Part shown: piece by piece, positions 12,252 to 44,775 of the stretch | How the letters are laid out: every line of letters starts with the position of its first letter | Numbering within the stretch: the stretch's first letter is position 1 | Source: Deltaproteobacteria bacterium | Lineage (GTDB): Bacteria > Desulfobacterota > Binatia > UBA9968 | Assembly: GCA_009692615.1 (NCBI GenBank) | Contig: SHYW01000022.1 | Coordinates: forward strand, 1 to 54,139 | Direction of reading: 5' to 3' | DNA length: 54,139 nucleotides | The notes under the pieces: generated by a model | The model's input: the letters and a program-made list of their open reading frames with translations, nothing else | Told to the model about the DNA's origin: nothing | Databases searched by the model: none | Translations under genes and position numbers: made by a program

Positions 12252-12371
12252 TGCCGTCATACCGGCGCAGGCCGGTATCTATCCTCAACCGCCCAACCTG
12301 GATACCGTTCTCCAACGGTATGACGGATTCTGTCCGTCACCTGGATGCCGGCCTGCGCCGGCATGACGGCA
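12252..12371. repeat. Dispersed palindromic intergenic repeat (GTCATACCGGCGCAGG type)
   Basis: About 120 bp built from outward-facing copies of one motif. The left arm is TGCCGTCATACCGGCGCAGG. The right arm, ATGCCGGCCTGCGCCGGCAT followed by GACGGCA, is its near-exact complement. A central smaller palindrome lies at 12300-12325 (GGATACCG ... CGGTATGACGG). The whole can fold into a long hairpin or two stacked ones. The motif is of a type widely scattered in unrelated bacterial genomes (established knowledge, no specific name given). It sits between convergent genes, and a T-run follows the right arm, so it could also act as a terminator. Confidence 0.8.
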
Positions 12372-18942: not shown

Positions 18943-19402
18943 GTTTTCGAGAAAACAACCGGCGGCCAGCAGGTAGAATGAGCCCCGTAGGATCGGTTGG
19001 GTCCGTCGATTGAACTCCGGACCGATTCCGACGGAACCCATCGGCTGGGGCCGGAGGCAACTTCGGACGGCATGGGTATCGCTGGCTCCACCCATTCTAC
19101 AAACTGATGTAATTCGTTCCGGGTTTTCGAACGCGAAACACAAAACTCGAAACCCGAAACTAGAGCTGCCGCCACCCCTCCTACCAACCGCCAACCGCGA
19201 CAGATCGCGGCAGACCCGGACAATTTAAATCCGAAGCTCCGCGCTCAAGCAGATTTACGGAAACTTCATCCATGCTCTTCTTGTCTGACTACGGCGAAAT
19301 CGATATTCATCGCGCTCGCAACAACGTTAGCGAGAGTTTTTTAGAGGCGTAGTAAGAGCAGGCGAAAATATCAACGCAGTGGAAGAGAAAGGGGCAACGG
19401 AT
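18943..19402. other. Intergenic region, no clear gene
   Basis: Contains a run of CGAAAC words (19131-19162, including AAACTCGAAACCCGAAAC) that recurs inside the DUF58 gene at 26830-26862. A 26-codon frame (19272-19352) is not recognised. A weak hairpin CTCGC ... GCGAG followed by six T (about 19312-19341) could terminate transcription ahead of the DUF1566 gene. Otherwise I see nothing in it. Confidence 0.4.
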
Positions 19403-20185
19403 ATGAAACGGATACTCAGTACAACGGTGGCGCTCGCGGTGTTGGCGATATTTATATCGTCGGCGCAGGCGGCGATCACCATCAACAAAGCGGAAATCAA
19501 TCAGGGTGCTGTTGTGGTGAACGGCAAAAGAGCAGCAGCCAACGCCGACATATTCTGGGAGGGCGACCCTACCAAAGTTGCGACGGCAAATGGAAAAGGT
19601 GCTTTCAATTTTACGACGACGAATCTACCGGCGGACTGCGTTGGACGGCTGAAGATAGGGACCGAGGAGAGAGACGTGGTGATTGCCGGTTGCGCACACC
19701 CGCTCAAGACGGGGCAGACAAACGACTTTGGAGTTACTGGTTCCGACGGTGATCTTGAGAAGGGCACGGCGCGGAGCTACACGGACAACCTTAACGGAAC
19801 GATCACGGATAATTCGACGGGGCTTGTCTGGGAAAAACTTACGAGCGACAACGTAGGCAATTTCTACACCTGGGCAGACGCCTTTGCGGTAAAGATCGCG
19901 GCGCTGAACACCGTGCCTTGCTTCGCGACTCACTGTGACTGGCGGCTGCCGAATATAAACGAGCTTCAATCGTTAGCGGACTACGGGCATGTTTTGCCGG
20001 CCATCAACCCTGTGTTTAACAACGGCGTGGACAGCTTCACGCAATCGTCCGTCTACTGGTCGTCTACTACGTACCAGAGCAACCCGAACGACGCGTGGAA
20101 CGTGAGCTTCTTCGACGGTTTCGTGTTTCCGTTCAACAAGAACTTCAACTTCAGCTACGTGCGCGCAGTTCGCGGCGGCTCTTAA
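19403..20185 (+). CDS. Secreted DUF1566 (Lcl-type, FGE/C-lectin-like fold) protein
   Basis: A 260-residue exported protein. Signal peptide cleavage is expected after SAQA (residue 23). Residues about 24-105 form an Ig-like N-terminal domain (AITINKAEINQGAVVVNGKR). The C-terminal DUF1566 domain follows: DNLNGTITDNSTGLVWEK, then CDWRLPNINELQSLADYG, SVYWSSTTY and the terminal VRAVRGG. This domain is related to formylglycine-generating-enzyme/C-type-lectin folds and usually serves in surface binding. In several bacteria such domains are the variable targets of diversity-generating retroelements, with variation in the last part before RAVRGG. No reverse transcriptase or template repeat is visible here. 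Confidence 0.85.
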   Translation: MKRILSTTVALAVLAIFISSAQAAITINKAEINQGAVVVNGKRAAANADIFWEGDPTKVATANGKGAFNFTTTNLPADCVGRLKIGTEERDVVIAGCAHPLKTGQTNDFGVTGSDGDLEKGTARSYTDNLNGTITDNSTGLVWEKLTSDNVGNFYTWADAFAVKIAALNTVPCFATHCDWRLPNINELQSLADYGHVLPAINPVFNNGVDSFTQSSVYWSSTTYQSNPNDAWNVSFFDGFVFPFNKNFNFSYVRAVRGGS

Positions 20186-20466
20186 TCCTTCGGTACGCGC
20201 GTTGCGCTACTCAGGACAGGACTTGGTTATTTGGTGATTTGAGTATTTGTCCCTCGATACGCGCTTCGCGCTACTCGGGATAATCCCTCGTTACGGTTCC
20301 TGCGGAACCTACTCGGGACAAACGGATGTTGGAATTCCGTTGATCCTGAGTAGGCCTAGAAGGCCGTACCCCTCGATACGCAACCTGAGAAGGTTGCTAC
20401 TCGGGGAAACGGGGTATGCATGCCGACTGCCCCGAGTAGCCACCGTTGCGGTGGCGTATCGAGGGG
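20186..20466. repeat. Array of REP/BIME-like hairpins
   Basis: Six units share the ends CCCTCGATACG and CTACTCGGG around a variable stem-loop. Forward units: 20186-20215, 20251-20280, 20285-20318, 20369-20406. Reverse units: 20344-20368 (degenerate) and 20430-20466. Internal stems differ but stay paired: GCGCTTCGCGC; GGTTCCTGCGGAACC; GCAACCTGAGAAGGTTGC; GCCACCGTTGCGGTGGC. Forward/reverse pairs (20285-20368 and 20369-20466) are separated by 23-25 bp that themselves contain a CGG ... CCG mini-hairpin, so each pair is a three-hairpin BIME. The same family is at 37256-37465. The array lies between the DUF1566 gene and greA. Confidence 0.85.
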
Positions 20467-20780
20467 TGGGGCTATGCACTACTCAAGGTGGGCTGCGCGC
20501 TGGTAGCGGAGCGGCTTTTAGCCGTGCGGACCTTAGATCTGCATTCTGCGGCGCTCCCTCGCGTGGGCTACGTGTTCACCGCCGGTTTTCCGACACACCT
20601 CTCAGGTTTTTACATTAGAGCGGCAATAAATCGGGGCCTGATCGTGGTTGAGGCGAGCCAAGCCTTTAATCCGTCAGCCGGTGCAATGCGGCGAGTCCCT
20701 CGCACCGTGTCCATACCCGCGCGCGACCTCGCTGCGCTCGGTATGGCAGATTCCAAATTCCAGATTCCAAATTGACGGCC
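20467..20780. other. Intergenic region between repeat array and greA promoter
   Basis: No convincing gene. A degenerate ACTACTCAAGG piece near 20478 may be a decayed hairpin unit. CCATACC ... GGTATGG (about 20712-20745) is a further palindrome. 20747-20775 holds the A/T-rich words ATTCCAAATTCCAGATTCCA, like other gene-end repeats in the window. Confidence 0.4.
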
Positions 20781-33850: not shown

Positions 33851-33925
33851 ATTCACCACGAAGGACAGGAAGGTTTCGGATAATTAATATTCCGAACTTC
33901 GTGCTCTTCGTGCCTTCGTTGTGAG
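33851..33925. repeat. Long hairpin repeat, ACGAAGG family (copy 1)
   Basis: The left arm TTCACCACGAAGGACAGGAA and the right arm CTTCGTGCTCTTCGTGCCTT (followed by CGTTGTGAG) form a long stem. Inside it a second hairpin TTCGGA ... TCCGAA is present. The arms are made of repeated GAAGG/CTTCG words. A closer match is at 44654-44736. Both are intergenic. Confidence 0.75.
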
Positions 33926-34016
33926 ATCGGATTTTCCGATTGAGCACGGCTATCACTGCCTCTGGCATCATCGCGCAGATTTGATAGAAGGTTAGGGCGT
34001 TAGCCGGAGGTGCGCC

Positions 34017-36768: not shown

Positions 36769-36824
36769 GAAATTTTACCACAGAGGGCCTAGCGCGGCGA
36801 AGCCGCAACCGAATTTCGGAACAA

Positions 36825-36905
36825 CTCTCGCAAAGGCGCAAAGGCGCAAAGGTTTTAAGAAATAAATTCTTTTCCGAACTTGGCGCCTTTGCTCCTTGGC
36901 GAGAG
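36825..36905. repeat. Long hairpin repeat, GCAAAGG family (copy 1)
   Basis: CTCTCGCAAAGGCGCAAAGG (then CGCAAAGG) opens the element and TTGGCGCCTTTGCTCCTTGG then CGAGAG closes it. The left arm has tandem GCGCAAAGG words. An A/T-rich loop with AAGAAAT ... AATTCTT lies in the middle. It is related in design to the ACGAAGG family and to the copy at 48560-48650. Confidence 0.75.
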
Positions 36906-37156
36906 GAATGCCCGAGTCCGAAATGTTTTGTCTGTCGGAAAATTTGCGCGTGACGCGCAAATTTTGAGATATAGTAGTACAGAGATTACGGAGAAAAATA
37001 GCCGGAATCGGATAATCCACCGCACAAAAATATTTCATCTTCGCTTCGTTTAAATCTATCGCGATCCATTCTATCGGAGCGCGGTTTTTCTAATCCGCGA
37101 ATGAATAGACGCGGACAGGAATGTCCGTACTCCTGTGATCGGAATGACGGTGTGCG
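36906..37156. other. Gene-free stretch with small palindromes
   Basis: No coding frame looks real. The notable piece is GCGGACAGGAATGTCCG near 37113-37130 (GGACA/TGTCC hairpin). The rest shows nothing recognisable. Confidence 0.4.
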
Positions 37157-37212
37157 TTAGGGCGTAATGGATTGCGCCCGTCCGGTCCGGGCGCGATAAA
37201 TCGCGACCCTAC
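37157..37212. repeat. Inverted repeat GTTAGGGCG ... CGACCCTAC
   Basis: GTTAGGGCG-TAATGGATT-GCGCCC pairs with GGGCGC-GATAAAT-CGCGACCCTAC around a GTCCGGTCC centre. The outer arms have mismatches and the inner GCGCCC/GGGCGC arms are perfect. Immediately upstream (37088-37143) is a GCGGACAGGAATGTCCGT hairpin. These belong to a 700-bp gene-free stretch packed with repeats. Confidence 0.65.
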
Positions 37213-37255
37213 AAAAAGTCCATCGGACTCCGCTCGCATCTGGCGTTGTCGGAGG

Positions 37256-37287
37256 CCCCTCGCTACGCCCGTACGGGCTACTCGGGG
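37256..37287 (+). repeat. REP-like hairpin, single unit
   Basis: CCCCTCGCTACGCCCGTACG then GGCTACTCGGGG. Same ends as the units at 20186-20466, with GCCC/GGGC as the inner stem. It is followed by AATCGGAAAATCC, nearly the same as after the unit at 37375, but no reverse partner follows. Confidence 0.8.
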
Positions 37288-37374
37288 AATCGGAAAATCC
37301 AATCCACACACCAAGTCGCGGTCGACCGCCGCCGGCTTTTTTGGCGGCGCTATGGTGTCAGGTATTTTCGAAAG

Positions 37375-37465
37375 CCTCTCGCTACGCCCTGCGGACTACT
37401 CGAGGAATCGGAAAGTCCAAACCGACTCCCCGAGTAGCGGCCGTCGTCGGTCGCGTATCGAGGGG
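37375..37465. repeat. BIME-like pair of REP hairpins
   Basis: The forward unit 37375-37405 (CCTCTCGCTACG ... CTACTCGAGG) and the reverse unit 37428-37465 (CCCCGAGTAGCGGCCG ... CGCGTATCGAGGGG) are separated by 22 bp holding CGG ... CCG. It has the same architecture as 20285-20368 and 20369-20466. Confidence 0.8.
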
Positions 37466-37490
37466 TTCACGCCCGCTACGTCGGATTGCG

Positions 37491-38072
37491 TCAGATTATG
37501 AACGGTAGAAATAGTTGCGCTGGGCCGGTTGTTTTCTCGCGCTTAGGCGCTTTCGCCAATTCACGTATTTCCTGCTCTAGCCAGCGGATGTATTGGCGCT
37601 GGGTGTGGCGTTTATCGATGGCGGCGATGCACAGGTCGCGCACTGACTCAGCGTAATCCGGCCAGCGTTCGCGCATCATGCGCGGCATTTTTATATAGGT
37701 CGGCGGATCGTCGAGGAACAGCGGGTCGCGGGCGAGGGTCCAGATGTCGCATTGGGTTTCGCCGCTGGGAATTCTATCCGGATCGGCATCGCGCGGCGCG
37801 GTGAGATTGCCGCGGCCTAAGCCTTGGATCAAATGGGTCAGCTCATGGCCGATGGTTTGATAGGTGAGCTTGCACACTTTGAAGCGGATGATCAGCCGCG
37901 AAATAATTCCCTTGCGATAGACCACCGTGGCGCTGCCCAAATGCTTGCGCGTGTAGCCGATCGTGATCGTCTGATCTTTCAATTCGGGAAAATAGCGCAG
38001 CGTCTGCTCGATCATTTCAGCGGCGCGGCGGTTCAGGCGCTGTTTCATCAGCGGGGTGAATTTAAGCTGCAT
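37491..38072 (-). CDS. Putative zinc metallopeptidase-like protein (HExxH)
   Basis: A 193-residue protein with HELTH at residues 76-80 inside KLTYQTIGHELTHLIQGLG, the zincin active-site helix with Glu77 as the catalytic base. The N-terminal part (about 1-65) forms a beta-sheet with TITIGYTRKHLGSATVVYR, as in SprT/WLM-like minimal metallopeptidases. A third zinc ligand is not obvious; an Asp/Glu in the GETQCDIWTLARDP segment may serve. The C-terminus is basic and helical. It has no signal peptide, so it should be cytoplasmic. It stands alone, flanked by repeats, and ends 25 bp from the BIME pair. The exact family is unknown. Confidence 0.65.
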   Translation of the reverse strand: MQLKFTPLMKQRLNRRAAEMIEQTLRYFPELKDQTITIGYTRKHLGSATVVYRKGIISRLIIRFKVCKLTYQTIGHELTHLIQGLGRGNLTAPRDADPDRIPSGETQCDIWTLARDPLFLDDPPTYIKMPRMMRERWPDYAESVRDLCIAAIDKRHTQRQYIRWLEQEIRELAKAPKREKTTGPAQLFLPFII

Positions 38073-44653: not shown

Positions 44654-44736
44654 TTTCACCACGAAGGCACGAAGGACACGAAGGTTTAGGAAAATATGTT
44701 TTCGAACTTCGTGCTCTTCGTGCCTTCGTGGTGAAA
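44654..44736. repeat. Long hairpin repeat, ACGAAGG family (copy 2)
   Basis: The left arm TTTCACCACGAAGGCACGAA with GGACACGAAGG pairs with the right arm CTTCGTGCTCTTCGTGCCTT with CGTGGTGAAA over about 30 bp. The arms consist of repeated ACGAAGG words. It sits between topA and trmFO and could act as a terminator-like or processing structure, though no T-run follows. Confidence 0.8.
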
Positions 44737-44775
44737 CCATTTTTTCACGGTGATCTTTTAAGAAATATTAAATCC

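Follow-up and report, generated by a model that had tools for sequence, protein, structure and literature searches.

GTAG-tagged hairpin repeats with compensated stems in a genome of the Binatia and their relation to REP elements

Hairpin units and their pairing

The window, a stretch of 54,139 nucleotides forming contig C22 of a draft genome of the Binatia (5.05 Mb, 186 contigs, 98.7% complete), contains two arrays of short hairpins whose stems differ in sequence from copy to copy while remaining paired. A first-pass annotation had offered two readings, a mobile element of the REP kind moved by a RAYT transposase or a structured RNA, and the locus thus raises the question of what these hairpins are and how they spread.

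The nine related units that had been described in the two arrays (20186-20466 and 37256-37465) were recovered as eight matches to a covariance model, R1, and one truncated unit. The first array opens with a plus-strand unit at 20186..20223 (arm type CCTTCG...CTCAGG; E 8.3e-6), which begins directly 3' of the stop codon of a gene at 19379-20185 encoding a Pfam Lcl_C domain. Two further plus-strand units follow at 20250..20283 (stem GCGC/GCGC; E 8.1e-7) and 20284..20325 (GGTTCC/GGAACC; E 1.3e-7), the second of them tail-to-tail with the truncated minus-strand unit, which lacks an outer arm and was read by eye at about 20337..20371 with no separate R1 match; a relaxed scan places it at 20348-20372, adjoining the unit at 20369. 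The array closes with a tail-to-tail dimer, composed of units at 20369..20413 on the plus strand (GCAACCT/AGGTTGC; E 9.6e-10) and 20423..20466 on the minus strand (GCCACCG/CGGTGGC; E 3.8e-9). The second array comprises a plus-strand unit at 37256..37294 (GCCC/GGGC; E 6.3e-10) and another tail-to-tail dimer, whose halves lie at 37375..37412 on the plus strand (GCCC/GGAC; E 2.4e-7) and 37421..37465 on the minus strand (GCGACCG/CGGCCGC; E 2.7e-7), each with one mismatch in the stem.

The exact pattern CTCGNTACG-N(3-25)-CTACTC occurred 7 times in the window versus 0 times in 100 shuffles. With a slightly wider gap, the genome contained 51 occurrences of the pattern (24 forward and 27 reverse) and one of a reversed control. 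The covariance model and genome-wide search that had been suggested as a check were carried out; R1 gave 90 matches at E <= 0.1, a few of them partial, among 150 scored of 2258 first-look candidates, and pair covariation was present. The elements are short palindromes in many intergenic copies, as in GTAG REPs.

Each unit is a hairpin of about 31-39 nt followed by a short tail. The outer part of the fold is a four-pair helix, succeeded by a TC/TC internal loop; the middle consists of a G-C pair, a bulge base (A in 36 and C in 35 of 73 units), a T-A pair, an A-T pair and a bulged C; and the inner stem is variable, with 4-8 pairs. Twelve columns were invariant among 47 aligned units (46 distinct), these being the mismatch-free units of a scan that demanded paired cores, in which the outer pairs played no part in the choice. 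The invariant internal-loop module reads TCGNTAC opposite TACTC, or GTAG...GTANCGA on the other strand. Columns 31-33 of the GTAG tag were invariant, and column 30 was the C that completes the tag in 43 of the 47 rows. Rather than standing unpaired at the end of the element, the tag sits between two helices, the outer of which covaries: columns 1-39 were paired in 41 of the 46 distinct rows with 15 double changes, and columns 4-36 in 44 of 46 with 9, in both cases with switches between C-G and T-A. The ends, which had been described as fixed, are not simply so: the outer pairs exchange C-G for T-A within units and form a covarying helix round the invariant module. An integron attC reading was set aside, as the arms do not appear to resemble attC core sites.

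Since the 47 aligned units had been chosen for paired inner stems, the fair test of the inner stem is provided by the 51 pattern matches, picked without regard to pairing. In these, the first three free stem pairs were paired in 139 of 153 cases; among the 43 distinct cores, pairing was observed in 115 of 129 cases, compared with a shuffled mean of 61.8 (sd 5.3) and a maximum of 79 in 2000 shuffles. The claim that the stems vary with compensation is thus borne out. In the 47 aligned units, 95.0% of the cells of the named structure were paired versus 78.5% after shuffling, and the covariation score was 0.374 versus 0.119 +/- 0.011, with none of 500 shuffles as high; when the partners were slid by 1-3 columns, the score dropped to 0.048-0.095. 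Two of the five covariation measures on these units remained at the shuffle level, namely the number of double-change pairs (8 vs 7.2; 164 of 500 shuffles reached the observed value) and that of further pair types (21 vs 19.9; 176 of 500). RNAalifold, given the alignment alone, returned the same outer and inner helices, with double changes in 6 of 11 pairs. The dimer at 20369-20466 folded at -37.7 kcal/mol (z -9.26) and that at 37375-37465 at -21.3 kcal/mol (z -2.47); the six single window units tested, folded as DNA, had z values from -3.42 to +0.89, and for this reason it is covariation and copy number that carry the case, and energy does not.

Dimers, genomic setting and distribution

For most units (82 of 90), the next one lies no more than 200 bp away. 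The 46 neighbour pairs at less than this distance comprised 33 tail-to-tail, 8 tandem and 5 head-to-head arrangements, and this count of copies and orientation upholds the BIME-like layout that had been proposed. The gap in tail-to-tail pairs was 18-25 bp in 23 of 33 cases, both window dimers among them. The tail often reads AATCGGA in the genome under study and CGAACGG in G101, a class genome considered below, and the two tails of one dimer can pair with each other. The spacer had been credited with a CGG/CCG mini-hairpin: the pairing exists, and it represents two unit tails meeting, not a hairpin of its own.

Of 92 outer pairs in 23 tail-to-tail dimers, 89 were complementary within their own unit and 48 matched the partner unit, and the single hairpin is consequently the conserved object; the units in the latter count came from a model that rewards within-unit pairs, while the 47 aligned units were taken without any choice on outer pairs. 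A four-way junction, with ends pairing across the dimer, was rejected as a conserved structure on the same partner match (48 of 92). The best fold of the dimer at 20369-20466 has its ends paired across the dimer.

Conservation of the flanks tailed off about 3 bases beyond the unit, as judged from the 73 units with sequence in the genome under study. A crude ORF picker allowed 29 of 44 clusters to be judged, of which 28 were intergenic and one lay inside a long ORF; 26 of the 28 adjoined the 3' end of a gene. The intergenic clusters were assigned to 14 convergent, 12 co-directional and 2 divergent settings, compared with 4, 9 and 6, respectively, in 19 gaps of the window. The true gene to the right of 20186-20466 is GreA on the plus strand, which the ORF picker had misassigned; the corrected numbers are 13, 13 and 2. 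No terminator-like site was found at 20100-20600, the same segment gave no Rfam match up to E 1, and TTTTT occurred close to 4 of 73 units. The structured-RNA alternative thus found no support in this segment, from either Rfam or the terminator scan.

Other repeats are also present in the window. The segment 36768-37028 is a member of a separate repeat family that recurs as dozens of partial copies in this genome and its congeners. Repeats of the CACGAAGGCACGAAG...CTTCGTGCCTTCGTGGTG kind occur at 33890-33936 and 44654-44746, 10.8 kb apart, the second as an inverted repeat. A 28-nt inverted repeat lies at 12252-12371, its arms 93% complementary and separated by 64 nt. A repeat beginning CCCTGACATAAT is found near both contig ends (94-141 and 54020-54047) in opposite orientation, and is perhaps the reason for the contig break there.

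Among related genomes, a stricter pattern matched 22 of 148 genomes of the class, many of them once. At least 9 copies were found in eight: G101 (181), G102 (80), G092 (55), the genome under study (45), G100 (23), G010 (13), G015 (9) and G093 (9). The unit pattern was present in 9 of 25 genomes of the family. A 7.5 kb contig of G015 (C140, locus L079) is rich in units, with 13 matches in a relaxed scan, and carries no PF01797 match. A still stricter, exact pattern, applied to 297 genomes drawn from the phylum, matched the genome under study alone, with 0 matches in the 285 outside the class; 11 others of the draw belong to the class, none of them among the eight unit-rich genomes. A distant-mode search of a plasmid collection with one unit as query gave no match, and the papers listed in a literature search for the arm sequences were, judged by their titles, unrelated.

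The spacer orthologous to window positions 36793-37499 measures 78 bp in the congener G009. The REP stretch at 37256-37465 had no blastn match in the orthologous spacers of three congeners (G009, G010 and G011); because the same spacer contains other repeats, the absence of the second array does not represent a clean single insertion.

Y1 transposase genes, nested units and double units

The genome under study contains two genes matching PF01797 (Y1 transposases). Their proteins, of 286 and 290 aa, each pass the cut-off of the NCBIfam model 'REP-associated tyrosine transposase'. The search for a RAYT gene that had been suggested therefore found candidates, yet no unit lies beside either (0 of 2), and the proposed link to RAYT transposases is not sustained in this genome. 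The gene on C78 is provided with a 28-nt terminal inverted repeat, and its protein gave no helix-turn-helix (HTH) match; around the gene on C21 no inverted repeat was found, and its product shows C-terminal HTH matches below the curated cut-off. The passages of a survey that treat this subclass describe long proteins with a C-terminal HTH as not associated with REPs (PMC6006769). Our guess, from protein length, the one terminal inverted repeat and the weak HTH matches, is that the two genes may belong to this long, REP-free subclass.

PF01797 matches occurred in all 25 family genomes. Units were near 2 of the 31 family Y1 loci scanned (the two above included; 121 matches in all): one unit at L051, and at L062 a pair outside a terminal inverted repeat. 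At the latter locus (G013, C588, 1468-2583), the Y1 gene lies, as read by eye, within inverted repeats GGGGTCAGACTTT, and the pair is located some 85 bp outside. Six REP-bearing genomes of the class gave 34 matches, and 30 of these Y1 loci were scanned, some of them shortened by contig ends; a clear unit pair was near 1, and two further matches, at L146 and L148, look like chance. Combined, 3 of 60 Y1 loci have a unit nearby, with L061 common to both sets, and no REPtron was found among the 60.

The one clear pair is found in G100, where a short Y1 gene (L134) has its open frame 38 bp away. The Y1 genes scanned in G101 (99% complete; 6 of 7 matches scanned), G102 (98%, about 30 contigs; 6 of 6) and G092 (97%; 6 of 7) lack a convincing unit at distances up to 1.5 kb. 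When the flanks of nine short Y1 genes of G100-G102 were read by eye, six, L134 included, had another palindromic flank. These other palindromes, CCCCGAAGGGG and CCCAGGGC...GCCCTGGG, were seen by eye at L130, L134, L135, L136, L146 and L153, and apparently constitute a second REP-like system. The short Y1 genes were also considered as the cognate RAYT and set aside, as they occur in G100-G102 and not in the genome under study or G010.

G101, which belongs to another family of the class, contains 20 distinct contexts of one guest unit (19 found by script and one by eye), all of them in the loop of another unit; the search could find little besides nested copies, so that nothing follows on free-standing guest copies. 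The arm types of the hosts were GCGCC (10), GGGCCC (5), GGCCCC (2), GCCGCC (2) and GGACCC (1). In the host loop GCGCCAGA|AGAAGGCGC the guest measures 56 bp and occurs in three copies. For one of these, the flanks, once joined, agree with an empty copy at 158 of 160 positions, without any duplicated base, and the borders of the guest allow no other placement. The other two, compared with their best empty copies, agree at 115 and 126 of 160 positions, with similarity only near the units. A second host differs in that two bases of the empty copy are missing from the filled one. The point of insertion comes after CT on the GTAG strand; CT is also where the E. coli TnpAREP cleaves, according to the relevant part of PMC8266576. 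Given the same guest in hosts of five arm types at one loop position, and a second host short of two bases, repeated insertion and a single event with later spread of the composite or gene conversion are equally likely. A limited literature search yielded no description of REPs inserted in REP loops; insertion sequences that target REPs are known, as a portion of PMC1525189 records. The mobile character that had been proposed thus gains from the missing second array in three congeners and from the filled and empty pair in G101, while the part that concerned RAYT does not hold here.

A different, tail-less double unit is amplified in G102 (its 5' half had 68 matches, versus 1 for the control). 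Its 8-nt linking helix was paired in 320 of 392 cells, versus 286.7 +/- 3.9 after shuffling (maximum of 2000 shuffles, 301), in a count that used 49 of 55 distinct rows, length-changed rows included; omission of the latter gave the same answer (271 of 328 vs 241.6 +/- 3.7). Position 6 of the helix was paired in only 41%. Two double units and one degenerate copy are known by reading in the genome under study; by count there were 3 matches versus 4 in the control, one of the three being two tandem window units, and a search with the 5' half gave 2 versus 0. Single double-unit matches in other genomes were at control level. In three other G101 loci (L178, L186 and L189), REP dimers lie, as read by eye, within repeats of about 240 bp that are bounded on either side by CTAAG and may be a MITE carrying a short duplication of its target.

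Relation to known systems and possible mode of spread

By kind, the elements are GTAG REPs in BIME-like dimers; what is distinctive is that the tag is enclosed, that the stems are free, that a neighbouring transposase is missing and that REP-in-REP nesting comes with a clean empty site. As far as the descriptions in Di Nocera et al. 2013 (PMC3733652) extend, the GTAG REP families share with them the GTAG, a short palindrome with alternative complementary stem letters, head-to-head and tail-to-tail dimers with structured spacers, and a location mostly downstream of genes. Unlike those families, the tag here is in an internal loop enclosed by a covarying outer CCCC/GGGG helix, the genome under study has no RAYT neighbour, and there are double-decker units. 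The present family may nevertheless equal one of the 24 GTAG REP families (PMC3733652). The Pseudomonas REPINs, in the sections of Bertels and Rainey 2011 (PMC3116915) devoted to them, are similarly inverted doublets in which spacer pairing is kept by compensatory changes, but in that system the doublet is proposed to be what replicates, with singlets as its remnants, whereas in G101 a single 56-bp unit is inserted. The E. coli REP and its TnpAREP, in the corresponding part of PMC8266576, share the irregular stem zone, the GTAG and CT as the cleavage dinucleotide; here, in contrast, the irregular zone holds the GTAG, and no cognate TnpAREP was found. TIRYT, or subclass 2.1 TnpAY1, as outlined in portions of PMC6006769, resembles the C78 gene in its 28-nt terminal inverted repeat and the C21 gene in its sub-cut-off C-terminal HTH matches; C21 lacks the inverted repeat and C78 the HTH, and the placement is a guess.

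The elements probably represent a class-specific variant of the GTAG REPs, spread as folded single-stranded DNA via a putative enzyme of the Y1/HUH type. A protein would read the invariant internal-loop module, TCGNTAC/TACTC, held between two helices whose letters would be free provided that pairing is retained; if recognition depended on fold and module and ignored the stem letters, this would account for the compensation in the stems. Cleavage and joining of the folded single-stranded unit may be the work of a Y1/HUH-type transposase, either one acting in trans or one since lost. We propose, tentatively and as a possibility of distinctly lower standing, that what moves is the single hairpin rather than the doublet, and that its target is the single-stranded loop of an extruded REP hairpin, into which it inserts without duplicating the target; nested (REP-in-REP) and coaxial double-module elements would be built in this way and then spread as composites, with a mover other than a neighbouring RAYT.

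Three other explanations were weighed. It is unlikely that the units are an ordinary REP or REPIN system whose cognate RAYT gene is missing from the draft assembly or was recently lost. The layout is that of known GTAG REPs, the loss of REPtrons in some strains is reported in passages of PMC3733652, and the G100 pair lies 38 bp past a short Y1 frame; yet this is the sole clear pair among the 30 Y1 loci scanned in REP-bearing class genomes, the scanned Y1 genes of the REP-rich G101, G102 and G092 lack a convincing unit at up to 1.5 kb, and six of the nine short Y1 genes read by eye, that at L134 included, have different palindromic flanks. We consider it highly improbable that larger MITE-like elements, mobilised by a DDE transposase, carry the units along as passengers: several G101 dimers do lie within longer conserved repeats with CTAAG-like ends (by eye), but conservation in the genome under study tails off about 3 bases outside the unit, and a unit entered the G101 loop without duplication. 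The location of 26 of the 28 intergenic judged clusters next to a gene 3' end and the compensated stems would also be compatible with selected RNA or DNA devices (3'-end mRNA stabilisers or protein binding sites) held by selection and not mobile, a reading to which we give very little weight, as 20100-20600 has neither terminator-like site nor Rfam match, TTTTT is near just 4 of 73 units, and the second array is missing from the orthologous spacer of three congeners.

The preferred reading, a class-specific variant spread as folded single-stranded DNA, bears on a general matter, as the mechanism of REP spread was still 'to be elucidated' in the pertinent part of a 2021 paper (PMC8266576). With many copies, a clean filled and empty pair and no obvious cognate enzyme, the family offers a test bed for whether single hairpins are mobile, and also for whether the loops of other hairpins serve as targets. 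Its stems, free in their letters but paired round an invariant internal loop, show which part of the element the enzyme should read.
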